A stretch of 39,621 nucleotides of DNA from a virus: positions 1-39,621 of IMG/VR virus record IMGVR_UViG_3300042310_000167; one strand, given 5' to 3'. Positions 1,163 to 39,621 of the stretch are shown here, in pieces; the first letter of the stretch is position 1; each line of letters starts with the position of its first letter. The translations under genes were made by a program, and so were the position numbers. A model generated the notes under the pieces. The model searched no databases. It was not told where the DNA came from and worked only from the letters and a program-made list of their open reading frames with translations.

Positions 1163-1521
1163 TAAATTTCAATCTTAGTGCCATCAGGCATCGTGACAGT
1201 TGATGGTGGGCGCGTGTCTGTGATGGTTGTTTCGGTTTTGGTTATTTGCTCCTCAATTCCGTTGTTTAATGTATCAATGGCCTTAGCATTGCCCATCTTT
1301 GCGTTGTTAAATAAACTATCGACATACTCCTCAAGGTTGTTTGAGCCAGTTAACTTTTCGATAATCTTTTGAGTAAGTAACTTTTCAGCGCGCTTAGCCT
1401 CCCATCCTTTACTCTTAGCTTCGGGGCTTGGTTGATTGGTAGTTGTAAATGGTGTCCCATCAACTGCTCCTTTAAACGGTTTTAATGGACGTTTTTTGGG
1501 CGTTTTGTCATCGGCTTTCAT
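1162..1521 (-). CDS. Putative terminase small subunit, module A
   Basis: A 119-residue, Lys-rich protein encoded directly upstream of the large terminase and coupled to it by a TAATG overlap. The position is that of a small terminase subunit, which recognises phage DNA and recruits the large subunit. The N-terminus is basic and probably disordered (KKRPLKPFKG), the middle is helical (residues about 35-90), and the C-terminal tail is Thr-rich. I see no diagnostic helix-turn-helix, so the call rests mainly on gene order. It is unrelated in sequence to the equivalent protein at 34795-35301, although the bases just upstream of both start codons are nearly identical. The start is an ATG only 4 bases after a TATCTTTG promoter box, so the mRNA is probably leaderless. 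Confidence 0.6.
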   Translation of the reverse strand: MKADDKTPKKRPLKPFKGAVDGTPFTTTNQPSPEAKSKGWEAKRAEKLLTQKIIEKLTGSNNLEEYVDSLFNNAKMGNAKAIDTLNNGIEEQITKTETTITDTRPPSTVTMPDGTKIEI

Positions 1522-1525
1522 AGCA

Positions 1526-1533
1526 CAAAGATA
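1526..1533 (-). promoter_or_regulatory. Leaderless promoter -7 box for packaging module A
   Basis: On the minus strand TATCTTTG lies 4 bases before the ATG at 1521. It matches the Bacteroidota -7 consensus TAnnTTTG. No good TTTG is visible at -33. Transcription would begin at or beside the start codon. The same arrangement occurs at 35306-35313 before the unrelated small terminase of module B. Confidence 0.55.
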
Positions 1534-1537
1534 AGAA

Positions 1538-1885
1538 TTATTTTAATAAGTTTAATATAAGTGATTGAAACTCATCAAGTGACCTTACGATGTGATATTG
1601 AAAACCATTACTCCTAACTAATGCTGCCCATTCCTTTTGCCCTGCTGATTGCGAACCATCAGATGTTTTGAATTCAATCATAAACGCTTTTGCATCATAG
1701 TAAAGCACCATATCACTTCTGCCAGCTATTAGACCTTTAGCCTTGTTTCTTGCACCATCAATTTTGTTTTTTGAATTGTTGAGGTTGTAACACAATAAAC
1801 CACGGTGTTGTGGGTAGGTGTTGTGAAACCATACGTAGCAATCACTTTGTATTTTATCCTCCGATTGCTTCTTTTCGTTTTGCAT
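1538..1885 (-). CDS. VRR-NUC domain nuclease, copy A
   Basis: A 115-residue single-domain nuclease of the VRR-NUC (PD-(D/E)XK-like) family, which occurs next to helicases in many phage replication modules and is associated with processing of structured DNA. The family layout is visible: an early acidic residue (E9), GRSD at 55-58 with the metal-binding Asp58, the EFK core at 71-73, and a conserved Gln at 83. Total length is normal for the stand-alone phage form. It overlaps the 3' end of the helicase gene by 32 bases, so the two are probably made together. Copy B at 35318-35665 differs at about 11 positions, mostly after residue 77. Its exact substrate in this phage cannot be read from sequence. 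Confidence 0.88.
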   Translation of the reverse strand: MQNEKKQSEDKIQSDCYVWFHNTYPQHRGLLCYNLNNSKNKIDGARNKAKGLIAGRSDMVLYYDAKAFMIEFKTSDGSQSAGQKEWAALVRSNGFQYHIVRSLDEFQSLILNLLK

Positions 1886-3344
1886 TCAACAAATTTACAA
1901 TAAAATCTTGATGCCACCTATTATTTTGCTTTTCATATTTTTTGCACCAAACAGATAGCTGCTCACCTGCCATTTTTACGGAATGGTAATGAGTTATTAT
2001 TGGCGAATGTTTTAACTCATACTGAATAATATGGTCGCAAATCTTGTGCAATACTGCGTATGGTTTCCATTTGCGTTCCTCTGCTAATTGAAACAAGTGT
2101 TGTGTAGGTATATTAATAGGTTTTTCTCTGGTTAGTTTTACAAGTTGTTTTATTTGCTCTTCTGCTTCTTGTGCTTTTTTCTCCTCTTCAAAATCGTGAC
2201 CACAACTTTCGCACTTTATTTTTCTTGTATGCTGAAGATGTCCACAATTTGGACATTCCTTAACCGGTGACATCCCAACACTTTTATTTTCTTTTTTAGT
2301 ACCATTTTTAAAATATGTTTGCCAATCAAAAAAATCGGTGTATTGGCCATGTCTTGCAGTATTTTTTCCCAAATCAATCACAGTAAAGTTGCTTTTGTTT
2401 TCGCTTAATCTTGATCCTCGGCCAATCATTTGGAGGTATAGTGATAAAGATTTGGTTGCTCTGTTAAGTATAATTGTTTCAATTGTTGGCTCATCAAATC
2501 CAGCAGTCAACACACCCACATTACAAATTATGGCATCAGGTTCTTGCTTAAACTTTTGCAAGATTTCAGCACGTTCTTTTTTTTCAGTTTCACCGGTAAT
2601 ACTATACACATTTAATCCCTCAAGTAATAAGGCAGAATAAACCGCATCGTTATGTTTTAGATTTACATTGAATATTAATGTTTTTTTACCTGCTGATAAT
2701 TTCCAATAGCTTTCAATCACATTGTTAACCATCTTTTCGCTGGAGTAAAATTCCTCCATTTCTTTCTCATCAAATTCACCGCCTTTAATTTTAAATTTTT
2801 GAGCTGCTACTAAATCAGATGCAAATCCGTAGGCATCACAGTTTAGTAAATAATTATTATCAATCAAATCGGTAATGGTAACTGGTTGCAATAGTTCAGC
2901 ATAATAATTTGCCAATGGGTATTCGTTTATTGGTGTTGCAGTTACTCCAAGCACTTTGCATTCTTGGTCTTGAAAGAATGGCATTTTCTTAAAGTTACCG
3001 ATGTGACACTCATCAATTATTGTTAACCCAAACTTAGGCAGTTTCTTAATTCTTCTTGCAACTGTTTCCACCATTCCGACATAATAGTTGTAGTCACTTG
3101 GTATGGCTTTTACTCCTGCTTCAATCAAGAAACACTTTTCACCCAAACTATTTTTAGCTTGTTGTAGTAATTCTTGTCTATGCACCAATATAAGCACACT
3201 TGTAATGTTTTCTGCATAGTGCCTTTTAGCGACTTCGCAAAAGGTAAAAGTTTTGCCACTTCCGGTTGGCATTTGTAGCGCGACATTCTTATTTTGATTG
3301 CTCTCAATTAATGTTATTGCGTTTTTTTGGTATTCTCTTAACAT
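1854..3344 (-). CDS. SF2 DEAD/DECH-box helicase with C-terminal zinc ribbon, copy A
   Basis: A 496-residue ATP-dependent superfamily 2 helicase. Walker A is MPTGSGKT at 25-32, the DECH box is at 111-114, the motif III TAT is at 135-137, and motif VI is QMIGRGSR at about 305-312. A zinc ribbon of two CxxC pairs follows (C364/C367 and C378/C381). It probably unwinds or remodels DNA during replication or recombination together with the overlapping VRR-NUC nuclease. I chose the ATG at 3344, not the in-frame GTG at 3371, because copy B begins at the equivalent ATG (37124) and the extra codons fall in the repeat-rich intergenic region. Copy B differs most near residues 160-175 and in the C-terminal 50 residues. 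Confidence 0.92.
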   Translation of the reverse strand: MLREYQKNAITLIESNQNKNVALQMPTGSGKTFTFCEVAKRHYAENITSVLILVHRQELLQQAKNSLGEKCFLIEAGVKAIPSDYNYYVGMVETVARRIKKLPKFGLTIIDECHIGNFKKMPFFQDQECKVLGVTATPINEYPLANYYAELLQPVTITDLIDNNYLLNCDAYGFASDLVAAQKFKIKGGEFDEKEMEEFYSSEKMVNNVIESYWKLSAGKKTLIFNVNLKHNDAVYSALLLEGLNVYSITGETEKKERAEILQKFKQEPDAIICNVGVLTAGFDEPTIETIILNRATKSLSLYLQMIGRGSRLSENKSNFTVIDLGKNTARHGQYTDFFDWQTYFKNGTKKENKSVGMSPVKECPNCGHLQHTRKIKCESCGHDFEEEKKAQEAEEQIKQLVKLTREKPINIPTQHLFQLAEERKWKPYAVLHKICDHIIQYELKHSPIITHYHSVKMAGEQLSVWCKKYEKQNNRWHQDFIVNLLNAKRKEAIGG

Positions 3345-3532
3345 GGTTACAGATTTTACAGATGTTAACACTTTTTTTTCAATCTGTAACTTAGTGGCAC
3401 TAAGTGGTTACAGATTTACAGATTTATATCATTTATTTAACTTACTATACATTATACACACACGCACACACACGCACACATTATTTTATACAGCGTAATT
3501 GAAATTCGCTTTTTATGTGTAATCTGTAACTT
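3345..3532. other. Intergenic region with TTACAGAT repeats, palindrome and CA tract (candidate origin or operator), copy A
   Basis: This 188-base gap separates the primase stop from the helicase start. The 8-10 base motif GTTACAGATT or its reverse complement occurs at 3346-3354, 3356-3363, 3381-3390, 3407-3416, 3415-3424 and 3521-3530, with another inside the primase gene at 3570-3578. A near-perfect palindrome (ACTTAGTG-G-CACTAAGT, 3389-3405) lies between two inverted copies, so the whole can fold as one long hairpin. A (CA)n-type tract lies at about 3458-3480. I see no TAnnTTTG promoter here. Iterated sites next to a primase-helicase suggest a replication origin; binding sites for a repressor are the alternative. 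Confidence 0.5.
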
Positions 3533-5644
3533 TTAGAACGTATCATTTTGATTTTCAATACTATAAGAGGTTACAGATCCTTTGATTTTTATCTCATAAG
3601 CACGAATTACCTTAGTTCCTACTTTCATAACTTGCTGAATGTAGCCACATTTTTTCAAAGCCTGCCCCATTCGTTTGGTGTTAGTTTTAAATGTTGGGTG
3701 TATTTTTTGCAGTTCAAGGATCACATCCGTGTTAGTCATTTTGCTTGTTGGGTCATTTTGGATGTGTCTATTAATTAATTCAACTTCACTCATTACCTCA
3801 ATGTTTTTTTCGTTGGCTTTATTTAAGTATTCGATTTCTCTTTTGGTTAAGAACCAAGCCTCTTTATCACTTTTCCATTCATTGTAAAGCTCAATAAATA
3901 GTTTATCCTTATCAATCTTCATATACGCATCAAAATCAAAGCTAATCAGGTTTATTGGTATTATTCTTCGGTTACCAGTAGGGTCATTAATTACCTCAGC
4001 ATCGTTTGAAGTTCCACCTAAAACAGCAAGGCGTAGCAGGTCTTCTGAAACTCTTCCGTATGGCATACGAATGGAAAATGTTTGCTGGCTGCTCATACGT
4101 TTTAATTTTGTAGCATCCTTTTTTGATTTGCCTCCAAATTCATCATCAACTATTAACCATTTTTTAGTCATTAAAATTTCAGAATCTTTGCCCTCATCCA
4201 AGTTGCTTTCAGCATAGAATTTACGCAAATCTTTCGGCAATAGGTTTCTATAAAATTCAGTTTTTTTGATTCCTTGTTCACCAGTAATCACTAAAATCAT
4301 TAACGAATAAGTGCCATAGGCTGAACCAATCAATCCTAATAACCATTTTTTTAAATAGGTATCTAAATAGTCATCAAAAGTGTATACCCCATCATTTTCG
4401 TATATTAGTTGCTCAATCTCAAAGCACTTTTTTAGCTTGTCAAATTCATTATCAGTTGTCAGATGTGAATTATTCTCAAACCAATTTTTAATCGGGTTAT
4501 AAGATATGCTATTGTCTTTATTTTGAATTAGGGTAAACACTTTGTCCTTTGAAATTCCATCATCAATTTTCTGCCAAACTTTGGTGTAGAAATTAGCCAA
4601 TATTCGATCGGTCATTTCCTCGCCATTGAATTCAAAGTTTCGTGTAATCTCGTTGAATTTTACATTGTTTAATTTGATAAGTTCAATGATTTCATCAATC
4701 TCTGTATTTTCTTTTTTTAGTTGAGGTTTAAGAAACTCATCGGCATCGGTTATATTTAATTTTTTTAGTTCTTCTTGGGGATTATCAGAAAGTTTAACAA
4801 TGCTCTTTATTTTTTCTGTCCTTTCCGATGTGGTGCTAATTCCTGCTTGCTTAAAAATATAATAAACTGATGCAATGCTGACACCAGTTCCGCTACGTTG
4901 CAAAGCTATATTGTAATCACGTTCTGCTTGCCTATGGGAATATTTTGGCGATGATTGGCATAGTGAATGAAAGTAGTTGCGACCACTTTCACTAAATTCT
5001 TGGGTCAAAGCAAAAGCAAGGCGAATGTAGTCTTCGTAGTTATCAAACAAATTCATTGGCGCAGCCTTTACCACCATCTCATCAAAATCAGTTTTAACAA
5101 CCACTGGCTTTGGCTTTGGTTTGTCTTTTTTCTTTAAGTAGGTCTTAAATTGTTTTGATTTCTTATTAATGTAGATGTCTGGGTCATATGACACAAAACG
5201 CAAACGAGATGTGTCCTTGCAAGACTTGTCCAGCACAATTGAAAACTGAACCATAAAGTAATTTTCAAGTGAAAGAAACGCATCCAAATGCCTTGTCCCA
5301 TCAATTTTTATAAATACTGCATACCCATTACCAGATAGTGAACGATGCACGGAGTAAACATATTCGTTGCGTTTTATTCTTTCAATATCAACTTCAGCAA
5401 TCTGGTCTTTTGCATCAATATCAAGACAAATGAAACCACTATGCTCAAGTAATTTATTAGCTGCCCTTTGCTTGAAGCTACCACTTGCAGTTACGCAAGT
5501 TGTTAACTCTTTTTGTGTTCGACCAGCACGAAAGTTTAGCACTTCATCTTGCCAGCGACCATTTTTAATCCCATCAAAATACTCATCAACTTCAATGCTT
5601 GCATCTGATTGGTTACTTTTTGCACTATTAAATACTGATATCAT
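3533..5644 (-). CDS. VirE/BT4734-type replicative primase-helicase, copy A
   Basis: A 703-residue multidomain replication protein. The N-terminus (about 1-170) resembles the BT4734/VirE_N primase-like domain, with an acidic strand FICLDID at 71-77. Residues about 187-265 resemble the PriCT helical domain. The C-terminal half is a VirE-type SF3-like ATPase: Walker A GEQGIKKT at 455-462, Walker B WLIVDDEF at 496-503, then GGTSND at 543-548 and TGNRR at 556-560. It probably makes primers and unwinds at the phage origin; no phage DNA polymerase is seen, so the host enzyme is likely used. I chose the ATG at 5644. The longer frame starts with a TTG at 5689 inside a conserved leader hairpin and would add 15 unlikely residues. 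Confidence 0.9.
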   Translation of the reverse strand: MISVFNSAKSNQSDASIEVDEYFDGIKNGRWQDEVLNFRAGRTQKELTTCVTASGSFKQRAANKLLEHSGFICLDIDAKDQIAEVDIERIKRNEYVYSVHRSLSGNGYAVFIKIDGTRHLDAFLSLENYFMVQFSIVLDKSCKDTSRLRFVSYDPDIYINKKSKQFKTYLKKKDKPKPKPVVVKTDFDEMVVKAAPMNLFDNYEDYIRLAFALTQEFSESGRNYFHSLCQSSPKYSHRQAERDYNIALQRSGTGVSIASVYYIFKQAGISTTSERTEKIKSIVKLSDNPQEELKKLNITDADEFLKPQLKKENTEIDEIIELIKLNNVKFNEITRNFEFNGEEMTDRILANFYTKVWQKIDDGISKDKVFTLIQNKDNSISYNPIKNWFENNSHLTTDNEFDKLKKCFEIEQLIYENDGVYTFDDYLDTYLKKWLLGLIGSAYGTYSLMILVITGEQGIKKTEFYRNLLPKDLRKFYAESNLDEGKDSEILMTKKWLIVDDEFGGKSKKDATKLKRMSSQQTFSIRMPYGRVSEDLLRLAVLGGTSNDAEVINDPTGNRRIIPINLISFDFDAYMKIDKDKLFIELYNEWKSDKEAWFLTKREIEYLNKANEKNIEVMSEVELINRHIQNDPTSKMTNTDVILELQKIHPTFKTNTKRMGQALKKCGYIQQVMKVGTKVIRAYEIKIKGSVTSYSIENQNDTF

Positions 5645-5750
5645 TTTATATAAATTAAATAAGCCCCTATCGAGATGCGCCACCGCCAAGAGGCTACATC
5701 AAGATAAGGGCTATGCTATTAATAATTTCTTTCAAGTTGGCGGTTATTTC
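5645..5750 (-). ncRNA. Structured leader of the primase gene with loop-complementary 5' segment, copy A
   Basis: Minus-strand RNA between the promoter at 5756-5787 and the primase ATG at 5644. The stem is AGCCCTTATC (5703-5712) with GATAGGGGCT (5662-5671), followed inward by GATG/CATC and possibly GCC/GGC. The apical loop contains TTGGCGGT (5682-5689). The 5' end carries ACCGCCAA (5737-5744), exactly complementary to those 8 loop bases, so a pseudoknot can form. The stem is followed by a U/A-rich run, so it could act as an attenuator. Copy B has only two substitutions in this region, one of them in an unpaired position. No match to a known RNA family is claimed. Confidence 0.55.
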
Positions 5751-5755
5751 GTTTG

Positions 5756-5787
5756 CAAATATAAGTAATAATTACTTAATCTGCAAA
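5756..5787 (-). promoter_or_regulatory. Promoter for replication module A
   Basis: Minus-strand TTTG (5784-5787), a 20-base spacer and TATATTTG (5756-5763) match the Bacteroidota -33/-7 consensus closely. The predicted start, about 5750, is just upstream of the loop-complementary segment of the primase leader. The -33 box lies in the 3' end of the Gp157 gene. Confidence 0.75.
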
Positions 5788-6266
5788 TTACGATGTGTTG
5801 CTATACTGCAACCAGTAACTTCAACACCATCCTTTAACGCTGCTTTAATAGCTATTTTATCTGCTTGTTCTGTTACCTTAACTACCTTGTATGCAGCAGG
5901 CAGTTGGTTGACATCATTTACCTCAACTGATTCCGATTTTCTAAAGTTAATCTTGACCAAAGGTGTTTTGATTTCTTCAATCTGGAATAAATCCATTGCG
6001 TGTTTGATGCGGTCTTTAAGGTATTCAGATGCCTTTTCACGTTGTTTTTTTGCTGCCTGCAATCGTTTAATTTCAGCATCAATAATTTCAACATCAGCAT
6101 CCATTTGTTTGATGACAAATGAATAGGCAACTGATTTGTTTTGCAACTGTTCTTCAGTAATGGCAAGTGCTTCCTCAAGAGAGGGGGTTAACTCACCCCC
6201 ATTCTCTATAAGTTCTTCTGCTAATTGATTGTAAGTTTGTTCGATTTGAAATATTGTAGTTTTCAT
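5772..6266 (-). CDS. Gp157-family phage protein
   Basis: A 164-residue protein matching the siphovirus Gp157 family. The family pattern is clear: an N-terminal helical part, a long charged coiled coil (about residues 50-95, with repeated IKRLQAAKKQREKA-like heptads), then the conserved IKTPLVKINFRKSESVEV strand region and a C-terminal part with D..AIKAALKDG..V.G. Members have been linked to phage resistance in streptococci and usually sit beside recombinases and SSB genes; the molecular role is not established. Here it is directly downstream of the RecT-like gene with a one-base overlap, so it is part of the recombination operon. Its 3' end contains the -33 box of the promoter for the primase. 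Confidence 0.85.
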   Translation of the reverse strand: MKTTIFQIEQTYNQLAEELIENGGELTPSLEEALAITEEQLQNKSVAYSFVIKQMDADVEIIDAEIKRLQAAKKQREKASEYLKDRIKHAMDLFQIEEIKTPLVKINFRKSESVEVNDVNQLPAAYKVVKVTEQADKIAIKAALKDGVEVTGCSIATHRNLQIK

Positions 6267-13758: not shown

Positions 13759-13771
13759 ATTATTACTTTTG
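13741..13771 (+). promoter_or_regulatory. Promoter of the methyltransferase leader RNA
   Basis: GTTG (13741-13744), 19-base spacer and TACTTTTG (13764-13771). The -7 box matches TAnnTTTG and the -33 box has one mismatch. It overlaps the 3' end of the spanin-like gene. Confidence 0.6.
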
Positions 13772-13775
13772 CAGC

Positions 13776-13856
13776 GTTGTGTAGGAGCAACAAAACGAAA
13801 TTTTAACAGAAGCCTTGATTGGTGCGACCTCCTACTCGCATTGATTGAGGTTTTTT
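13776..13856 (+). ncRNA. Kissing-loop leader or small RNA ending in a strong terminator, upstream of the C5 methyltransferase
   Basis: About 80 bases between a promoter and a T-run. Hairpin 1 is GTTG/CAAC (13776-13779 and 13788-13791) with an 8-base loop containing GTAGGAG (13781-13787). Hairpin 2 is a 15-bp stem, with several G-U pairs (13813-13827 and 13836-13850), whose 8-base loop (13828-13835) contains CTCCTAC. The two loops are exactly complementary over 7 bases. Six T residues follow (13851-13856). It can be a small RNA or an attenuator for the gene that starts at 13869. Confidence 0.6.
13810..13856 (+). terminator. Rho-independent terminator or attenuator
   Basis: The second hairpin of the leader RNA: 15 bp, extendable to about 18 with the A/T flanks, followed directly by TTTTTT. 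It sits 12 bases before the methyltransferase ATG, so transcripts from upstream must read through it to express that gene. Confidence 0.75.
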
Positions 13857-13868
13857 AATTTAAGAAAT

Positions 13869-15281
13869 ATGAATGTATTAAGTTTATTCGATGGTATGAG
13901 TTGCGGTCAACAAGCTCTTGACCGATTGGGAGTGAAAGTTGACAACTACTTTGCAAGTGAAATTGATAAGTATGCTATTCAGGTAACGATGGCAAATTAT
14001 CCAAATACCAAGCAATTAGGAAGCGTTGTAAATGTTAATGGATATAGTTTACCTAAAATTGATTTACTACTTGGAGGATCGCCTTGCCAATCATTTTCAT
14101 TTGCAGGTAAACGCAAAGGAATGGCAACGAAATGCGAAACCGAAATTCTAACACTTGAACATTACTTGGAATTGAAAGCAGAAGGTTACGAATTTGAGGG
14201 GCAAAGCTATTTATTTTGGGAATTTATGCGACTGATTAACGAATGCAAACCTACATACTTTCTACTTGAAAATGTAGAGATGGGCGAAAAGTGGGAAAAA
14301 GTATTAAGTAAAGCCATCGGTGTAAATGGCATCCACATTAATTCTGCATTAGTTTCAGCGCAGAATCGTAAGAGAATATACTGGACAAACATAGGTATGC
14401 AACCAAGCGGTTTGTTTGGCGATTTGGAATCTATTATAGATCAACCGAAAGATAGAGGGATATTGTTAAAGGATATATTAGAAACTAAAGTTGATGAAAA
14501 GTATTTTTTGAGTGAGAAAGCAATAAATAAATGCTTAAAGTCAACTGCTAATGAAAATATGTTAACTACTGATAATAAAGACAAAAGCGGTTGTTTGATT
14601 GCTGGTTATTATAAAACTCCTTTTGATGGTACTTATGTTAGAGATAAACAATTTACTGGCCTTGATTTAAATGCTAAATCTCGTACAATAAGAAATGGAG
14701 GAAGTGCAACTGCAACTGATAAACATAATTGGGATTTAATAGTCCACAACACAATGCCACGTTCATCAACATCGGGCAAAGGTGGAACAGGCCCATTAAG
14801 TAGAGCTGATGGTAAAACTTATTGTTTGGATACTGGGAATACTAATGCGGTGGAGGTTAGACAAGTCAAACAAATCAACACCAACAATAAATCAAATGGA
14901 GGCACACAACCTTACCAACAAGATAGAATTTATGATATTGATGGAATTAGTCCTGCATTGAATACTGATGGAAGAAGTCACGCTGTGGAGGTGTTGGATA
15001 TAATTGAAGCTCAAAAAATAGTAGGTAGCCGAGGTGAAGATATTTTGCATACCGAAAACGATAAATTACATACACTTTGTTCTCAAAATGGTAATAAAGT
15101 TAGAGGTAGAGGTTTGTTTGTAAACTCACGCATCCGCAGACTAACTCCAATCGAATGCGAACGATTACAAACAGTAGCAGATAATTACACCAACCACGTT
15201 AGTGATTCACAACGCTATAAGATGCTTGGTAATGGTTGGACGATTGATGTTATAGCACATATTTTGAATTACGCTTTTTAA
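13869..15281 (+). CDS. C5-cytosine DNA methyltransferase
   Basis: A 470-residue DNA cytosine-5 methyltransferase that would methylate phage DNA, most simply to evade host restriction. Conserved motifs are in order: I (LFDGMSCG, 6-13), IV (GGSPCQSFS, 69-77, catalytic C73), VI (ENV, 134-136), VIII (QNRKRIYWTN, 165-174), IX (RRLTPIECERLQ, about 422-433) and X (LGNGWTIDVIAHIL near the C-terminus). About 240 residues lie between VIII and IX, which is long; they form the target-recognition region and contain RIYDIDGISPALNT, typical of phage enzymes. I chose the ATG at 13869 because the longer frame starts with a TTG in the terminator stem. No restriction enzyme is adjacent. Confidence 0.95.
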   Translation: MNVLSLFDGMSCGQQALDRLGVKVDNYFASEIDKYAIQVTMANYPNTKQLGSVVNVNGYSLPKIDLLLGGSPCQSFSFAGKRKGMATKCETEILTLEHYLELKAEGYEFEGQSYLFWEFMRLINECKPTYFLLENVEMGEKWEKVLSKAIGVNGIHINSALVSAQNRKRIYWTNIGMQPSGLFGDLESIIDQPKDRGILLKDILETKVDEKYFLSEKAINKCLKSTANENMLTTDNKDKSGCLIAGYYKTPFDGTYVRDKQFTGLDLNAKSRTIRNGGSATATDKHNWDLIVHNTMPRSSTSGKGGTGPLSRADGKTYCLDTGNTNAVEVRQVKQINTNNKSNGGTQPYQQDRIYDIDGISPALNTDGRSHAVEVLDIIEAQKIVGSRGEDILHTENDKLHTLCSQNGNKVRGRGLFVNSRIRRLTPIECERLQTVADNYTNHVSDSQRYKMLGNGWTIDVIAHILNYAF

Positions 15282-32220: not shown

Positions 32221-33519
32221 TTAATTGCTTCCAGTTGTGCTTTGGTTTTGCTCATTGCCTATGGTAGATTGTAATGTTGTTGATATAATTAATTTGTCTG
32301 CATTTGGGTCATCAGTAATCGGAGGTTTGCCCATTGCCACTCTAACTTCGTTTGCAGTAAATATGCCTTTCATTTTAAAGTCTGCTAACTGCATTTTGTT
32401 TTCTTGCAGGCATTCAACACCGCTAAAGTCTTGTCGCATTCTCACTTGTTGACTTGGAAAGTGATTAGCGCATAAATATTGCGTGTATGCCTCTGCCATT
32501 TTATCAGATAGAGGAATGATGCAATTGGTATACATATTCTTTTGCGCCTCTAAACTATTGTTGAATGTACTTGCAGCAGTATCGTTGAATAACTTGGCAT
32601 CAATACCGAACACATTACACAATGCTCTGGTATTTACTATTCCTTTTTCAAGTAGTTGCATATCACTCGGTGACATACCTATTTGAATGTATTTTAAGTC
32701 TTTGTTTGTGGTAATAATCTTACCAAAGTTATGCGCTCCTCCTACTCTATTTCTCAATTCAGCATCTACCCTTGTTGCCTCATCTGGTGTCATTGGCAAT
32801 TGTGAACTATCTGAAATTAATCCTGCAACACCTTTATTGCTCAATATACTTGCATCAGCAATCCATCTTTCATTGCCTACCTTAACAACGTATGCAGCAA
32901 CTTGAATAGGGCTTAATCCATAATCAAATGTTTGTAAGTTTGGATTGTAGAACTTAATGTGCTTTAACTCATTCTGTGTATAAACTCTTGATGTGCCACC
33001 GAAATTGAATTGATATTCAAGTTGTGGCATAAAGAAATTTAAGTTGCGGTTATAAATGTTTATAGCTGAACTTGGTAGAATGTCTAATTCTTGAATCAAT
33101 CTTGAATTAAATTGAGTATTACCAACTAAATAAACATTGCCAGTAATCAATAAGTAAAGTAAGGTTTGTTCTTCAATATCATTCCAAGTATAGCCCTTAT
33201 AGTTGTTTGGCTCATCCATTAACTCGTGAAGAGATGTATTGTATATTTTCTCCCAAGTACCATCAACTCTTTTCCTTTCAATTACCCAAGGAATAGACTT
33301 GCTTACATCAACTATCTTCTTTACTATGGCATATACATCAACATTCTCTGAATAGCCTTCCCTAATCATTAAATCAGCCCTATTGCCCCAATTCAATGGC
33401 ATCAAGCCACCAAACTCTCTCCAGATTGTTTCTCTGTTCTGTTCGGTTAACGATATAGTATTGGCATAGCTTAACGCTTTGTTTGCTATTTTCCCAACTA
33501 CTTTCTGAATGAAATTCAT
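32221..33519 (-). CDS. Portal protein (HK97 family)
   Basis: A 432-residue portal protein, the dodecameric ring through which DNA is packaged and ejected. Typical elements are the N-terminal VDVYAIVKKIVDVSKSIPWV, HELMDEPNNYKGYTWNDIEE, LLYLLITGNVYLVG, the later LSPIQVAAYVVKVGNERWIA and GLISDSSQLPMTPDEA, and a Gln/Asn-rich C-terminus. It lies between the large terminase and the prohead protease, which is the normal order. A possible promoter lies just upstream. Confidence 0.92.
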   Translation of the reverse strand: MNFIQKVVGKIANKALSYANTISLTEQNRETIWREFGGLMPLNWGNRADLMIREGYSENVDVYAIVKKIVDVSKSIPWVIERKRVDGTWEKIYNTSLHELMDEPNNYKGYTWNDIEEQTLLYLLITGNVYLVGNTQFNSRLIQELDILPSSAINIYNRNLNFFMPQLEYQFNFGGTSRVYTQNELKHIKFYNPNLQTFDYGLSPIQVAAYVVKVGNERWIADASILSNKGVAGLISDSSQLPMTPDEATRVDAELRNRVGGAHNFGKIITTNKDLKYIQIGMSPSDMQLLEKGIVNTRALCNVFGIDAKLFNDTAASTFNNSLEAQKNMYTNCIIPLSDKMAEAYTQYLCANHFPSQQVRMRQDFSGVECLQENKMQLADFKMKGIFTANEVRVAMGKPPITDDPNADKLIISTTLQSTIGNEQNQSTTGSN

Positions 33520-33592: not shown

Positions 33593-34792
33593 TTAAGCAC
33601 CACCAATGGCTAACGTGGATACTGGTACAAGGTAATCAAATCCGTAACGTGCAGGGTCAATTTGATGGTTATAAGCATCAATAGGTGTTTCTGATTTCTT
33701 ATCGTGCCAAATATAATTCCTCAATTCTTTGATGAGGTTTAAACTATCAGCAGTTACAACTATCTGATAGTCTTGCATTCGCTTTATGCCATTTCTCACA
33801 CTATCCTTACCCTTTTGCGCTGGCATTACATTAAAGTTTCGTTGCCTTAAATCGTTTATTGTTCTTGGGTCGGCACTATCCGCAACGATGATGCTATTGA
33901 TGGGGTTTACTCTTAACCTCAACGATTCACTTAATTGCTCGGTGCTATTGCCAGTCTTATACATACACTCCTGCAAGTATATTATTCTTCGCTTCTTATC
34001 AACTGCTATTTTAATTAGTGAGTCTGGGTCATTGCTGAATCCAAAATCCAAACCATAAACGTGCGGTAATGAATCATCGAATGTGCCAATATCCCAATTT
34101 TGAAAGATTGCACCCTGCAATGTGCCAACTTCACCATCAATGTACACTCTGCACCAATTATGCCAGTATTCATTTTTGATGTTCTTTGGGTCTGTTTTAT
34201 CTCCTAAAGGATTATGGTATGCCTTGCCTAACTTAATGTTCAACTCCGATAATATCTCTGGTGGGCAAGCCTCATTGTCTTTGTAAGTGAGCAATAAGAA
34301 TTCTGAATCCTCTTCAGTCAATATCTCATCGTGAACCCAAAACTGCCTATCTGGGTTATAATCAATCCAAATAGTGTTGCTCCTTGTAATTAACGCATCG
34401 GCAATATCGTAGTCAATGTGGTTTGCTTCGTTTAAGAATAACACATCACGCTTGCCTGCTGCTTTGGCTTTACCAACTGAATCAAACGCAGTAAATTGAA
34501 CTATTGCACCATTTGAGAACTTATACTCCATAGGATTACTTCGCCAATGTTCTTCAATCCACCTATTTGTATCAAACATCGTGTCTTGGAATATCTTTAC
34601 TGCCCCATTTCTAACTGCTGGAATAGATTCAGCAACAACTGTGATGAGGTGTCTTGGGTGTTTAGTAGCATAATCAATTGCTGCTACTGGGATTATGCCA
34701 TAGGTCTTGCCCGCACTTGTGCCACCTTGAATCACACGCTTTCTGGCTTTCATAGCCAGTAGTTTATTTATCGCAGTTGTCCTTTGAAACAT
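33593..34792 (-). CDS. terL: Phage terminase large subunit, module B
   Basis: A 399-residue packaging ATPase and nuclease, resembling the Terminase_3/PBSX type. Walker A is GGTSAGKT at 23-30, Walker B is VLFLNEA at 117-123 with the acidic residue at 122, and the coupling motif is LLLTYKDNE (about 166-174). The nuclease domain has GLDFGFSNDP at 247-256 with D249, and D305 in IIVADSADP. Full length. It is not recognisably similar to the terminase at the left edge of the window, although the replication genes next to each are close relatives. It abuts the small terminase gene upstream with two bases between. Confidence 0.95.
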   Translation of the reverse strand: MFQRTTAINKLLAMKARKRVIQGGTSAGKTYGIIPVAAIDYATKHPRHLITVVAESIPAVRNGAVKIFQDTMFDTNRWIEEHWRSNPMEYKFSNGAIVQFTAFDSVGKAKAAGKRDVLFLNEANHIDYDIADALITRSNTIWIDYNPDRQFWVHDEILTEEDSEFLLLTYKDNEACPPEILSELNIKLGKAYHNPLGDKTDPKNIKNEYWHNWCRVYIDGEVGTLQGAIFQNWDIGTFDDSLPHVYGLDFGFSNDPDSLIKIAVDKKRRIIYLQECMYKTGNSTEQLSESLRLRVNPINSIIVADSADPRTINDLRQRNFNVMPAQKGKDSVRNGIKRMQDYQIVVTADSLNLIKELRNYIWHDKKSETPIDAYNHQIDPARYGFDYLVPVSTLAIGGA

Positions 34793-34794
34793 AG

Positions 34795-35301
34795 TTAATT
34801 AAACAATGGTTGCTCACCTACCACCTTAACTTCACTTTTCGCAGGGGCATAATCACCACCCATCTTGTTTAGTTCTGCAGTAATTTCACGCTGCACTTTC
34901 ATAAGATTAGCACGTTCAATGGCAGTCAAATTCCTTATAACATCAACTGAAATCATTGCTTTGTTATCAAAAATAGTATCTGGTGTAGTACCCTTTAATA
35001 ATATCTCATCAAGTTCATTGATTTTATTTTGCAATTGTAATTGCCTTTCCTCTTTCGATTTTAAGCCACTTTTAAAGAGGTTTAAATCATTTTGGAGTAT
35101 AGCATCCTCTTTTAGTTTTTCTTTCGCCTCGTGCAATGTTTCCCACTTTAATTTGGCTATTTTCCATTGATTCCAAAATGTTCTTTCTGTTTTCTGAAAT
35201 TTAATGCAAAATTCTGAAACAATATGTTTAGGGTCAACTATTCCATTGTTTAACTTATCAACGATAAAGGTGATATAGGTCGGTTTTGCTGATGATATCA
35301 T
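34795..35301 (-). CDS. Putative terminase small subunit, module B
   Basis: A 168-residue helical protein directly upstream of the large terminase. The N-terminal 65 residues (PTYITFIVDKLNNGIVDPKH, then FQKTERTFWNQWKIAK) look like a DNA-binding helical domain, followed by a coiled coil (about 65-105), where oligomerisation would occur, and a C-terminal tail ending VGEQPLFN that could contact the large subunit. Domain order is that of small terminases. The ATG is 4 bases after a TATCTTTG box, so the mRNA is probably leaderless. Confidence 0.7.
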   Translation of the reverse strand: MISSAKPTYITFIVDKLNNGIVDPKHIVSEFCIKFQKTERTFWNQWKIAKLKWETLHEAKEKLKEDAILQNDLNLFKSGLKSKEERQLQLQNKINELDEILLKGTTPDTIFDNKAMISVDVIRNLTAIERANLMKVQREITAELNKMGGDYAPAKSEVKVVGEQPLFN

Positions 35302-35305
35302 AGCA

Positions 35306-35313
35306 CAAAGATA
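35306..35313 (-). promoter_or_regulatory. Leaderless promoter -7 box for packaging module B
   Basis: Minus-strand TATCTTTG followed by TGCT and the ATG at 35301, identical to the arrangement at 1521-1533 although the encoded proteins are unrelated. Confidence 0.55.
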
Positions 35314-35317
35314 AGTA

Positions 35318-35665
35318 TTATTTTAATAACATAAGAATTAGTGATTGAAACTCTGGTAGTGAACGAATGATGTGATATTGAAAACCATTGCTTGTAATCA
35401 ACCATTGCCAATCTTTTTGCCCTGCTGATTGCACACCATCAGATGTTTTAAATTCAATCATAAACGCTTTGGCATCGTAGTAAAGCACCATATCACTTCG
35501 CCCAGCTATTAGACCTTTAGCCTTGTTTCTTGCTCCATCTATTTTATTTTTGCTATTGTTGAGGTTATAGCACAATAGCCCACGATGTTGTGGGTAGGTG
35601 TTGTGAAACCAAACGTAACAATCACTTTGTATTTTATCCTCCGACTGCTTCTTTTCTTTTTGCAT
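35318..35665 (-). CDS. VRR-NUC domain nuclease, copy B
   Basis: A 115-residue nuclease with the same motifs as copy A (GRSD at 55-58, EFK at 71-73, Gln83). The first 76 residues differ from copy A at one position only, whereas the C-terminal third has about ten substitutions, including AA to QW after the conserved Trp and D to P near the end. This patchy pattern suggests recent recombination within the gene. It overlaps the helicase gene by 32 bases. Confidence 0.88.
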   Translation of the reverse strand: MQKEKKQSEDKIQSDCYVWFHNTYPQHRGLLCYNLNNSKNKIDGARNKAKGLIAGRSDMVLYYDAKAFMIEFKTSDGVQSAGQKDWQWLITSNGFQYHIIRSLPEFQSLILMLLK

Positions 35666-37124
35666 TCAACAAAGTTACAATAAAATCTTGATGCCATTTA
35701 TTATTATTTACTTTATACTTATCACACCACTTACTTAATTCTGTCCCTGCTAATTTTAAAGAATAATATGGTGTTACTATATTACTATACTTCTGCTCAT
35801 AAGCAATAATGTGTTCAGCTATTTTGTGCAAAACTGCATAAGGCTTCCATTGCCTTTCCTCTGCTAATTGAAATAAGTGTTGTGTCGGAATGTTGATAGG
35901 TTTTTCTCTGGTCAACTTTACTAATTGCTGAACCTTTTCTTCTGCTTCTTGTGCTTTTCTTTCCTCTTCAAAATCGTGACCACAATTCTCACACTTAACT
36001 TTTCTTGTATGCTGAAGATGGTTGCAATTTGGACACTCCTTAATTGGTGACATTCCAACACTTGTCTTTTCTTTTTTAGTGCCATTTCTGAAATAAGTTT
36101 CCCAATCGAAATAGTCATCATAATATCCGTGTCGAACAGTATTTTTTCCCAAATCAATAACATTAAATTTGCTCTTATTTTCGCTTGGTCTACTGCCTCT
36201 GCCAATCATTTGCAAGTATAGTGATAAAGATTTGGTTGCTCGGTTAAGTATTATGGTTTCAATTGTTGGCTCATCAAATCCAGCAGTCAACACACCTACA
36301 TTACAAATTATGGCATCATTTTCTGCTTTAAATTTTTGCAGTATTTCAGCACGTTCTTTTTTTTCAGTATCACCAGTAATGCTATACACATTTAAGCCTT
36401 CATTTCTAAACGCATTATAAACTGCTGCATTATGTTTTAAGTTTACGTTGAACACCATTGTTTTTTTGCCTGCTGATAGTTTCCAGTAGCTTTCAATCAC
36501 ATTGTGAACCATCTTTTCGCTGGAGTAAAATTCCTCCATTTGTTTCTCATCAAATTCACCGCCTTTTATTTTGAATTTTTGCGCTCCGACCAAATCAGAT
36601 GCAAAACCAAATGCATCACAATTAACCAAGTGACCATCTGCTATAAGATTGCTAATTGATACTGGCTGAATAAGTTCAGCATAATAATCGGCTAATGGGT
36701 ATTCGTTAATAGGTGTTGCAGTTACTCCAAGCACTTTACAATCTATGTCTTGAAAGAATGGCATCTTTTTAAAGTTACCGATGTGACACTCATCAATTAT
36801 AGTAAGCCCAAATTTAGGCAATTTATTGATGCGCCTTGCAACTGTTTCCACCATCCCTACATAATAGTTGTAGTCACTTGGTATGGCTTTTACCCCTGCT
36901 TCAATCAAAAAGCACTTTTCACCTAAACTATTTTTGGCTTGTTGCAATAGTTCATTACGATGCACCAATATAAGCACACGCTTAATGTTTTCAGCATAGT
37001 AACGCTTTGCATATTCGCAAAAAGTAAAAGTTTTGCCAGAGCCAGTTGGCATTTGTAACGCAATGTTTTTGTTTGCGCTACTTTCGATGGTATTTATTGC
37101 TTTATTTTGGTATTCTCTCAACAT
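35634..37124 (-). CDS. SF2 DEAD/DECH-box helicase with zinc ribbon, copy B
   Basis: A 496-residue helicase with Walker A MPTGSGKT, DECH, TAT and QMIGRGSR motifs and two CxxC pairs, all intact and the same length as copy A. Differences cluster at residues about 155-172 (SISNLIADGHLVNC against TITDLIDNNYLLNC), near 237-243, and in the C-terminal 55 residues. The ATG at 37124 is preceded by the repeat-bearing intergenic region. Confidence 0.92.
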   Translation of the reverse strand: MLREYQNKAINTIESSANKNIALQMPTGSGKTFTFCEYAKRYYAENIKRVLILVHRNELLQQAKNSLGEKCFLIEAGVKAIPSDYNYYVGMVETVARRINKLPKFGLTIIDECHIGNFKKMPFFQDIDCKVLGVTATPINEYPLADYYAELIQPVSISNLIADGHLVNCDAFGFASDLVGAQKFKIKGGEFDEKQMEEFYSSEKMVHNVIESYWKLSAGKKTMVFNVNLKHNAAVYNAFRNEGLNVYSITGDTEKKERAEILQKFKAENDAIICNVGVLTAGFDEPTIETIILNRATKSLSLYLQMIGRGSRPSENKSKFNVIDLGKNTVRHGYYDDYFDWETYFRNGTKKEKTSVGMSPIKECPNCNHLQHTRKVKCENCGHDFEEERKAQEAEEKVQQLVKLTREKPINIPTQHLFQLAEERQWKPYAVLHKIAEHIIAYEQKYSNIVTPYYSLKLAGTELSKWCDKYKVNNNKWHQDFIVTLLNAKRKEAVGG

Positions 37125-37321
37125 AATTTTATTGTTACAGATTTATTTATGTGTTGCAAATGTGAAACACTTGATTTTATTGGTTATTAGTTACTATGTT
37201 ACAGGTTACAGATTATTATTATTATTTTACTTACTACACTATACACACACACACGCACACACACATATATTATTTTATAGGGAGTATAGGAAAAACGAAA
37301 AATGTGTGTAATCTGTAACAT
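37125..37321. other. Intergenic region with TTACAGATT repeats and CA tract, copy B
   Basis: The counterpart of 3345-3532, but strongly diverged. GTTACAGATT is kept at 37134-37143 and 37205-37214, with a partial copy just before the latter, and in inverse orientation at 37310-37319. The (CA)n tract (about 37240-37264) and the AT-rich stretch after it (TATATTATTTTATA) are also kept. The central palindrome of copy A is lost. Preservation of the motif and the outer inverse site in otherwise unalignable DNA supports a function such as origin or operator. Confidence 0.5.
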
Positions 37322-39442
37322 TTAAAGAGTATCTGATTCATTATCAACATTATAGGTTGTTACACTTCCTTTGATTTTTATCTCATACGCACGAATGGTC
37401 TTTGAACCAGTCCTCAAAACTTGCTGAAAATAGCCACATTTTTTCAAAGCCTGCCCCATTCTTTTGGTGTTAGTTTTGAAAGTTGGATGTAATTTTTGCA
37501 ATTCAAGTATGACATCTGTGTTTGTCATTTTGCTTAATGGGTCATTTTGAATGTGTCTGTTAATTAATTCTACTTCACTCATAACTTCGATGTTCTTTTC
37601 GTTGGCTTTGTTCAAATATTCGATTTCTCTTTTGGTAAGAAACCAAGCCTCTTTATCCTCTTTCCATTCGTTATACAGTTCGATAAATAGTTTATCCTTA
37701 TCAATCTTCATATACGCATCAAAATCAAAGCTAATCAAATTTATGGGGATAATTCGCCTATTACCAGTAGGGTCATTGATTACTTCAGCATCATTTGATG
37801 TACCTCCTAATACTGCCAATCTCATTAAGTCTTCAGAAACTCTTCCATATGGCATACGAATGGAAAATGTTTGCTGGCTGCTCATACGTTTAAGTTTTGT
37901 AGCATCCTTTTTTGATTTGCCTCCAAACTCATCATCCACAATAAGCAATTTTTTTGTCATTAGGATTTCAGAGTCTTTGCCCTCGTCCAAGTTGCTTTCA
38001 GCATAAAATTTACGCAAATCTTTCGGCAATAGGTTTCTATAAAATTCAGTTTTTTTGATTCCTTGTTCACCAGTAATCACTAAAATCATTAATGAGTAAG
38101 TGCCATAGGCAGAACCAATCAATCCTAATAGCCACTTTTTAAGATATGTATCTAAATAGTCATCAAAATTATAAACACCATCATTCTCATAAATTAATTG
38201 CTCAATCTCAAAGCACTTTTTTAGCTTGTCAAATTCATTATCAGTTGTAAGATGTGAATTATTCTCAAACCAATTTTTAATGGGGTTATACGATATGCTA
38301 TTGTCTTTATTTTGAATCAACGTAAACACCTTGTCCTTTGAAATACCATCATCAATTTTTTGCCAAACTTTGGTGTAGAAATTTGCTAATATTCTGTCGG
38401 TCATTTCCTCTCCATTAAACTCAAAGTTTCGTGTAATTTCATTAAATTTTACATTGTTTAATTTGATAAGTTCAATGATGTTATCTATCTCATTTTTTTC
38501 CTTTGTGTTTTCTGATTTCGGAATAAACGCTTCAGCCTCTGCCAATGGAATGTTTAGCATTTTTAATGCTTCTTGCGGATTATCGGATAGTTTAACAATA
38601 CTCTTTATTTTTTCGGTGCGCTCCGATGTAGTGCTAATTCCTGCTTGGCGAAAAATATAGTAAACAGATGCAATGCTAACACCAGTTCCACTACGTTGCA
38701 AAGCTATATTGTAATCACGTTCTGCTTGTCTGTGAGAATATTTTGGTGAGGCTTGGCATAGTGAATGAAAGTAGTTGCGACCACTTTCACTAAATTCTTG
38801 TGTCAAAGCAAATGCCAATCGAATGTAATCTTCGTAGTTGTCGAATAAATTCATTGGCGCAGCCTTTACAACCATCTCATCAAAATCAGTTTTAATGACT
38901 ACTGGCTTTGGCTTTGGCTTGTCTTTTTTCTTGAGGTAAGTCTTAAATTGTTTTGATTTCTTGTTAATGTAGATGTCTGGGTCATATGACACAAAACGCA
39001 AACGAGATGTGTCCTTGCAAGACTTGTCCAGCACAATTGAAAACTGCACCATAAAGTATTGCTCTAAAGAAAGAAATGCATCTAAATGCCTTGTACCTTC
39101 AATGCGAATAAATACTGCATAGCCATTACCACTTAAAGAACGATGCACGGAGTAAACGTATTCGTTGCGTTTTATTCGTTCAATATCAACTTCAGCAATC
39201 TGGTCTTTCGCATCAATATCCAAGCAGATTAAACCACTATGCTCAAGTAATTTATTTGCTGCCCTTTGCTTGAATGAGCCACTTGCAGTTACACAAGTAG
39301 TTAACTCTTTTTGCGTTCGCCCTGCCCGAAAGTTTAAAACCTCATCTTGCCAGCGACCATTTTTTATACCATCGAAATACTCATCAACTTCGATACTTGC
39401 TTCTGATTGGTTACTCTTTGCACTCTTAAAAACTGATATCAT
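37322..39442 (-). CDS. VirE/BT4734-type replicative primase-helicase, copy B
   Basis: A 706-residue homologue of the protein at 3533-5644, with all motifs kept (GEQGIKKT, LLIVDDEF, GGTSND, TGNRR). The main difference is the linker between the primase-side domains and the ATPase (residues about 293-315), which differs in sequence and is three residues longer. I start it at ATG 39442, the counterpart of 5644; the TTG at 39487 lies in the leader hairpin. It is probably essential for replication of the phage whose packaging genes lie at 33593-35301. Confidence 0.9.
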   Translation of the reverse strand: MISVFKSAKSNQSEASIEVDEYFDGIKNGRWQDEVLNFRAGRTQKELTTCVTASGSFKQRAANKLLEHSGLICLDIDAKDQIAEVDIERIKRNEYVYSVHRSLSGNGYAVFIRIEGTRHLDAFLSLEQYFMVQFSIVLDKSCKDTSRLRFVSYDPDIYINKKSKQFKTYLKKKDKPKPKPVVIKTDFDEMVVKAAPMNLFDNYEDYIRLAFALTQEFSESGRNYFHSLCQASPKYSHRQAERDYNIALQRSGTGVSIASVYYIFRQAGISTTSERTEKIKSIVKLSDNPQEALKMLNIPLAEAEAFIPKSENTKEKNEIDNIIELIKLNNVKFNEITRNFEFNGEEMTDRILANFYTKVWQKIDDGISKDKVFTLIQNKDNSISYNPIKNWFENNSHLTTDNEFDKLKKCFEIEQLIYENDGVYNFDDYLDTYLKKWLLGLIGSAYGTYSLMILVITGEQGIKKTEFYRNLLPKDLRKFYAESNLDEGKDSEILMTKKLLIVDDEFGGKSKKDATKLKRMSSQQTFSIRMPYGRVSEDLMRLAVLGGTSNDAEVINDPTGNRRIIPINLISFDFDAYMKIDKDKLFIELYNEWKEDKEAWFLTKREIEYLNKANEKNIEVMSEVELINRHIQNDPLSKMTNTDVILELQKLHPTFKTNTKRMGQALKKCGYFQQVLRTGSKTIRAYEIKIKGSVTTYNVDNESDTL

Positions 39443-39548
39443 TTTGTATAAATTAAATAAGCCCCTATCGAGATGCGCCACCGCCAAGAGGCTGCATCAA
39501 GATAAGGGCTATGCTATTAATAATTTCTTTCAAGTTGGCGGTTATTTC
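39443..39548 (-). ncRNA. Structured leader of the primase gene, copy B
   Basis: The same hairpin as at 5645-5750, with the loop segment TTGGCGGT and its 5' complement ACCGCCAA both unchanged. Only two substitutions separate the copies over the leader: one near the ATG and one in an unpaired position of the stem-loop. The neighbouring start of the primase gene is less well conserved. Confidence 0.55.
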
Positions 39549-39553
39549 GTTTG

Positions 39554-39585
39554 CAAATATAAGTAATAATTACTTAATCTGCAAA
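39554..39585 (-). promoter_or_regulatory. Promoter for replication module B
   Basis: Minus-strand TTTG (39582-39585), 20-base spacer, TATATTTG (39554-39561); identical to the copy at 5756-5787. Confidence 0.75.
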
Positions 39586-39621
39586 TTACGATGTGTTGCT
39601 ATACTGCAACCAGTAACTTCA
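39565..39621 (-). CDS. Gp157-family protein, 3' fragment at the window end
   Basis: The last 57 bases repeat exactly the 3' end of the Gp157 gene (from 5772), from its stop codon inward, and are cut by the window edge. It is most likely the same gene reached again by going round a circular genome, not a second gene. Confidence 0.7.

Follow-up and report, generated by a model that had tools for sequence, protein, structure and literature searches.

A candidate class of kissing-hairpin leader RNAs, probably transcription attenuators, ahead of DNA-acting genes in Bacteroidota phages

In ColE1, replication is controlled by RNAI and RNAII, in which hairpin loops of approximately 7-8 nt form a 7-bp kiss whose shape is read by Rop/Rom. 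Replication attenuators of the pT181 and pIP501 type contain a 5′ segment that pairs with part of a terminator before the replication initiator gene. The CI RNA of phage P4 and the c4 RNA of phage P1 are structured leaders with self-complementary segments, located before a phage primase or regulator operon. The c4 antisense RNA (RF01695) is listed in a 2010 motif collection (PMC2864571), engineered attenuators are the subject of PMC4878617, and PMC8040213 describes HMP2_4078, a 109-bp candidate RNA of Bacteroidetes whose neighbors include D5 and phage genes.

The window analyzed here is the whole 39,621 nt of viral record IMGVR_UViG_3300042310_000167. On its minus strand, a leader lies between a Gp157 gene (stop codon at 5772-5774) and a BT4734-N/PriCT_2/VapE primase-helicase gene (3533-5644, ATG at 5642-5644; Pfam PF08800, PF08707, and PF05272). 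The initial annotation had placed this leader just after a consensus promoter, wording that fits the Bacteroidota promoter type: the element TATATTTG (TAnnTTTG) is found at 5756-5763 and is kept in relatives L008, L010, and L042 though their upstream gene differs, while the TTTG of the promoter at 5784-5787 overlaps the end of the Gp157 gene. The 5′ kissing segment ACCGCCAA (5737-5744) pairs exactly with the 3′ kissing segment TTGGCGGT (5682-5689), 47 nt away in the loop of a terminator-like hairpin, and here sequence and fold agree with the original claim. An A/T-rich linker (5713-5736) connects the 5′ segment to this hairpin, P2 (5662-5712), which has 18 bp with an internal loop and a bulge, a 10-nt apical loop, and a stem composed of AGCCCTTATC/GATAGGGGCT, GATGT/GCATC, and GCC/GGC. 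P2 is the minimum-energy fold (z = -2.49). The full order is TATATTTG, 11 nt, ACCGCCAA, linker, AGCCCTTATC TT GATGT A GCC (TCTTGGCGGT) GGC GCATC TC GATAGGGGCT, T-rich tract, ATG. A P1 hairpin around the 5′ segment is weak or absent, the segment being mostly single-stranded. The T-rich tract, TATTTAATTTATAT (5648-5661), is also weak; its longest T-run of 3 is among the weakest of the family set, nearly all other families having a T-run of 4-8 nt at the same place. Termination at this leader may be weak, given the poor T-run. As for a conserved short ORF that would mark a leader-peptide attenuator, inspection of the two copies of this leader in the window shows an ATG inside P2 (GATG) that is directly followed by TAG in copy A, described above, and not in copy B.

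Copy B (39460-39545, minus strand) lies upstream of a second primase gene (37322-39442), with ACCGCCAA at 39535-39542 and TTGGCGGT at 39480-39487. Near the hairpin the two copies differ at two positions. Both segments are kept in copy B, as previously stated, but the changes are not all in unpaired bases: one turns a U.G of the hairpin into C-G, so that the pairing is preserved. The surrounding VRR-NUC, helicase, and primase block is present twice in the window (1518-5823 and 35298-39621), with only 85% DNA identity between the blocks of copies A and B and with different flanking genes, and the contig end falls within the second block. This may reflect a duplication, or a contig exceeding one genome length with strain variants.

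A leader on the plus strand precedes a C5-cytosine DNA methyltransferase gene (13869-15281; PF00145). After the promoter element TACTTTTG (13764-13771), folding predicts a P1 hairpin, GTTG(TGTAGGAG)CAAC (13776-13791), which is kept in L046, L095, L209, and L227/L241 and presents the kissing segment GTAGGAG (13781-13787). Its partner CTCCTAC (13829-13835), 41 nt away, is contained in the apical loop CCTCCTAC (13828-13835) of a P2 hairpin (13808-13857; fold z = -3.73) with a T-run at 13851-13856. The likeness of architecture and spacing (41 vs. 47 nt) to the primase leader, proposed from the outset, was borne out, the plan being alike and the letters unrelated. A covariance model derived from other members scores highest in the window at the methyltransferase P2 (19.5 bits, E 0.029). 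Both strands of the window were also scanned for 7-mers complementary to the apical loop of a strong hairpin further downstream. Only three matches with a hairpin energy below -20 kcal/mol had an upstream TAnnTTTG, namely both primase leaders and that of the methyltransferase; shuffles of the window in 500-nt blocks gave 0-8 weak matches in all. The leader is not a property of all C5-methyltransferase genes, as most of 80 fetched relatives had none directly upstream and only close ones carried it.

Covariation among relatives had been set beforehand as the test, and both complementary replacements and two-sided changes were found. We compared the upstream regions of primase relatives in 41 viral contigs with close relatives and 78 with wider ones. 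Promoter, spacing, and hairpin were constant, while the paired letters differed. Within the window's own leader type, L015 and L028 carry an inserted C/G pair (ACCCGCCA/TGGCGGGT). Other families have other complementary pairs: GTTGCGG/CCGCAAC (L022), GTTGCGC/GCGCAAC (L031), AGGGACG/CGTCCCT (L036), ACGACCAA/TTGGTCGT (L164), AGCTGGAA/TTCCAGCT (L165), GGGTGAGAA/TTCTCACCC (L170), CTGGTCC/GGACCAG (L171), CTTGTCC/GGACAAG (L174), and AACTAGGA/TCCTAGTT (L177). Later tests added a Flavobacteriales MAG primase (L295; GTAGCTC/GAGCTAC) and Cellulophaga phage phi10:1. For the methyltransferase leader and for most relatives, a small hairpin presents the 5′ partner as its loop, which makes the contact a loop-loop kiss.

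Several variants were seen alongside these families. The replication-gene leaders of L073, L076, and L087 have a mini-hairpin (GGGTTAAAAACC or GGTTTAAAAAACC) in the P1-P2 linker. In L312, L324, L339, L365, and L366, several of which are large phage contigs, a TATTTATA-like sequence stands in place of TAnnTTTG and is perhaps another promoter class. By eye, Cellulophaga phage Nekkels_1 (L421, 2340-2470) has ATTGGAA/TTCCAAT with a far longer hairpin and spacing upstream of a replication operon, a possible variant of the kissing leader.

Several comparisons addressed chance complementarity. In 2.4 Mb of fetched sequence, cores with a promoter clustered by partner distance, 47 of 55 unique ones falling at 40-54 nt, and those lacking a promoter were evenly spread. 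When partners were swapped among 24 families, 548 of 552 swapped pairs had at most 6 complementary bases, while own partners have runs of at least 7; since these families were pre-selected for a run of 7, the unselected and formal covariation tests weigh more. In 22 of 32 independent leaders chosen only by promoter, terminator-like hairpin, and ORF, the 5′ segment and the hairpin loop shared 6 or more complementary nt, where shuffled 5′ segments gave an expectation of 1.0, and the distribution of complementarity over the 32 was two-humped. In alignment A2, which covers the window's leader type, 98.4% of cells were paired and six hairpin pairs showed two-sided change, with the kiss nearly invariant.

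The formal covariation test was provided by alignment A5, an AGUA/GAA subclass found by the pattern AGTAGGGN{6,10}CCCCGAAA, of which 19 distinct sequences were alignable. Paired cells amounted to 99.7% (72% in shuffles; at most 46% in slid controls), and the covariation score was 0.752 vs. 0.188, with none of 500 shuffles reaching it. Two-sided changes affected four of four P1 pairs and six of seven kiss pairs. The kiss formed part of the subclass selection and P1 did not; P1 pairs 4/4 in all 21 subclass sequences. The A5 complex thus consists of a 4-bp P1, a loop of 1+7 nt, and a 7-bp kiss, with both helices covarying. The subclass pattern also drew in 704 kb of sequence, a large share of which came from other phages; there, all promoter-associated kisses of 7 bp or more coincided with the pattern. 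Chance complementarity was rejected on the window scan, the swapped partners, the unselected leaders, and the A5 covariation. We regard the finding as real and larger than first stated, and its structure as strongly supported; the comparative evidence shows P1, P2, and the kissing helix, how far apart the partners lie, and the placement of the leader after the promoter and before the start codon. The suggested class, put forward as pseudoknotted attenuators, is likewise real and wider than thought, encompassing several Bacteroidota phages and several downstream genes, but its typical form is a two-hairpin kissing complex rather than a simple pseudoknot, and attenuation is its probable function.

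Members of the subclass, such as L316 (6476-6538), have an AGUA/GAA internal loop of the bulged-G (sarcin-ricin) type below the kissing loop, and L314, L337, L350, L397, and L403 have an apparent extra short hairpin 5′ of P1. In bacterial genomes, the exact AGUA pattern was found in 5 of 395 of one class, no more than a backward control, and a covariance model gave one match, read as chance, in 296 and 395 bacterial genomes under a strict prefilter and with no positive control. A search of genome contigs with close primases gave no match. The class may, on weak evidence, be restricted to phages.

The loop-loop contact resembles that of ColE1: two hairpin loops are joined by approximately 7 complementary bases in A5, replication genes are involved, and shape is constant while sequence varies. 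However, both loops are here in one RNA (in cis), one of the hairpins is the putative terminator of the leader, and a search for antisense promoters of the TAnnTTTG type gave no support for an antisense RNA. Searches of Rfam 15 (including riboswitches, c4, STAXI, Flavo-1, RT-2, and RT-14) with the window, 20 first-set loci, and 15 second-set loci matched two tRNAs only and no leader at gathering score; the best sub-threshold scores were 13.3 of 40 for RT-2 and 26.3 of 48.1 for RT-14. Membership in a known Rfam family was rejected on these thresholds. RT-14 RNA (RF02921) has a similar A-rich linker and UAGUA/GAA hairpin in its 3′ part, but the likeness concerns only the linker and P2 of one subclass and model positions 89-144, and the RT-14 model lacks a kissing loop. 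The STAXI motif (RF01728; PMC2864571) likewise has pseudoknots near genes for DNA-handling proteins, including ssDNA-binding proteins, but consists of tandem repeats in Enterobacteriales. HMP2_4078 shares host group and gene neighborhood, whereas it is described as palindromic and as lacking a predicted terminator (PMC8040213); it was compared by description only and might overlap. The claim that the class is undescribed agrees with these results and is provisional, resting on a search of open-licence PubMed Central articles and on comparison with the 2010 motif list (PMC2864571) and the HMP-PP riboswitch paper (PMC6478431).

That riboswitch is also a compact leader with an intrinsic terminator, an unusual terminator loop, and a possible pseudoknot (PMC6478431), and a metabolite-binding, terminator-embedded pseudoknotted aptamer would account for the paired terminator loop and for the AGUAGGG...CCCCGAAA core kept in one subclass. 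Outside that subclass, however, the leaders have no core nucleotides in common, and their kissing letters are unconstrained; none of the Rfam riboswitches matched, no biosynthetic gene follows, and what the downstream genes have in common is an action on DNA rather than a pathway. We consider a riboswitch highly improbable.

We propose instead that the class comprises cis-acting leader RNAs of approximately 75-100 nt in Bacteroidota phages, in which P2 is probably an intrinsic terminator that acts as a transcription attenuator and the kiss sets read-through. Attenuation is the best-supported mechanism. Transcription would start at the TAnnTTTG promoter a few bases upstream of the leader. The 5′ end of the RNA folds into P1, a small hairpin whose loop has approximately 8 nt (in the window's primase leader, a mostly unpaired segment takes its place); after it come an A/T-rich linker of approximately 20 nt, the strong hairpin P2, usually a T-run, and, in most families, the start codon 10-25 nt later. 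The P1 loop pairs with the P2 apical loop over 7-8 bp. As the P1 loop would be ready well before the P2 3′ arm, the kiss could form once the P2 loop exits the polymerase. It could either slow stem formation by holding the P2 loop or stabilize the hairpin by pre-ordering it, and would set how frequently polymerase reads through into the replication initiator, primase, homing endonuclease, or methyltransferase gene beyond. Pairing in cis is the most likely arrangement, given that kissing sequences can change freely and are not the same in different leaders of a single phage. The attenuator label rests on genome position and on the T-run after the hairpin: a GC-rich hairpin with a T-run lies between promoter and start codon, weakly so in the window's primase leader, and a T-run of at least 4 flanks P2 in 20 of 22 families, with a mean longest run of 5.1 vs. 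3.6 in shuffles. Several of these T-runs could be due in part to the A/T richness of the 5′ UTRs; compared with shuffles, the surplus is clear but moderate.

The arrangement differs from a classical terminator/antiterminator switch, which was rejected because no alternative pairing was seen that draws on a terminator arm at the terminator's expense. In these leaders the 5′ segment contacts the apical loop of P2, reaching into the arm by no more than 1-2 nt in some families; as it is the loop rather than the arm that is engaged, the kiss would leave the terminator able to form, unlike a classical antiterminator. Contact with the loop also separates these leaders from pT181/pIP501-type attenuators, which they resemble in that a terminator preceding a replication initiator gene is partly paired with a 5′ segment. 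A pT181-type antisense-RNA attenuator was also rejected on a search for TAnnTTTG-type promoters: within 200 nt downstream in 22 families, one in antisense orientation was seen, against 4.0 expected.

The proximity of P2 to the start codon in most families, together with the position of P1 at the putative 5′ end, could instead indicate a leader that blocks or licenses ribosomes, or protects the 5′ end of the mRNA, without termination. Such a role is unlikely, as the start codon lies outside P1, P2, and the kissing pairs, its distance varies (35-50 nt after P2 in L293, L294, and L291), and the T-runs would lack a role. The T-run after P2 itself in most families also speaks against a processive antitermination element resembling HK022 put, in which the folded 5′ RNA would bind RNA polymerase and carry it past later terminators. 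That reading draws on the two-hairpin plan, on the location of leaders at the very 5′ end of operons, and on the AGUA/GAA motif of one subclass, which together with the A-rich linker might serve as a binding site for polymerase or a protein; however, the window's own leaders lack the motif and many leaders precede a single short gene, and we judge it to have little likelihood.

Carriers include Flavobacterium phages mumin9-1, hemulen6-1, tooticki6-1, 11b, and FL-1, Cellulophaga phages phi18:3 and phi10:1, and Croceibacter phage P2559S, and the element was not found in phages P12024S, phi46:1, and 6H. Several phages have two leaders each, with different kisses. In P2559S, the annotated start of gp48 lies inside the leader (L418, 3956; record position 33955), and the true start codon likely follows the P2 hairpin. 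The main downstream genes encode replication initiators and primases, homing endonucleases, and DNA methyltransferases. They include VapE/BT4734 primases (among them L257), initiators of the O-like, DnaD-like, and Lin1244 types, operons of DUF6291 with DnaB or of a split BT4734 with D5, HNH, NUMOD4, and GIY-YIG endonucleases, an ssDNA-binding-protein operon with an HNH gene at its head, and a Rha-like regulator. NUMOD4/HNH genes stand directly behind the leader and directly before a primase or SSB gene in L163 (335-1000; an HNH gene between leader and primase) and L291 (8744-9700), as if inserted between the leader and its gene. The type A leader stays constant while the gene behind it is exchanged (primase, DUF6291 and DnaB operon, or BT4734 and D5 operon), which argues against autoregulation by one product.

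Leaders that often head replication operons, with kisses that differ between families and are constant within them, recall the immunity RNAs of P4 (CI) and P1 (c4), with which they share a structured, self-complementary leader before a phage primase or regulator operon. A terminated leader would carry both partners, and its loops could pair with the leader RNA that a superinfecting phage is transcribing, shutting off the replication operon of that phage; the diverged kisses would then define specificity or incompatibility groups. Nevertheless, phages annotated without integrase have the element (mumin9-1, 11b), leaders also precede homing endonuclease and methyltransferase genes, c4 (RF01695) gave no match at the Rfam threshold, and the window has no recurring third copy of a pair resembling seqC of P4. 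ACCGCCAA occurs once more in the window (20917, plus strand), GTAGGAG has no further copy, and its complement occurs once at 32739; a trans target in the same phage was rejected, the window's pairs recurring only at isolated sites, as chance predicts. We regard an immunity function acting in trans as quite improbable. Free kissing letters also imply that an outside factor, if any, must read shape rather than sequence. It is possible, although in our estimation doubtful, that a shape-specific factor (a phage or host protein resembling Rop, or RNA polymerase) reads the kisses and sets many DNA-acting genes together, with private kisses preventing cross-pairing.

These leaders thus appear to represent a widespread, unnamed class of phage cis-regulatory RNA in which a 5′ hairpin kisses a terminator-like hairpin. 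Because the class is defined by this plan and not by sequence, family-based searches miss it. The many naturally different kissing pairs could serve as orthogonal RNA parts, and the proposed attenuation is directly testable in culturable carriers (mumin9-1, hemulen6-1, 11b, FL-1, phi18:3, phi10:1, and P2559S). To our knowledge, little is known at the RNA level about the timing and dose of replication in Bacteroidota phages. One device placed before unrelated replication initiators, primases, homing endonucleases, and methyltransferases would bear on both.
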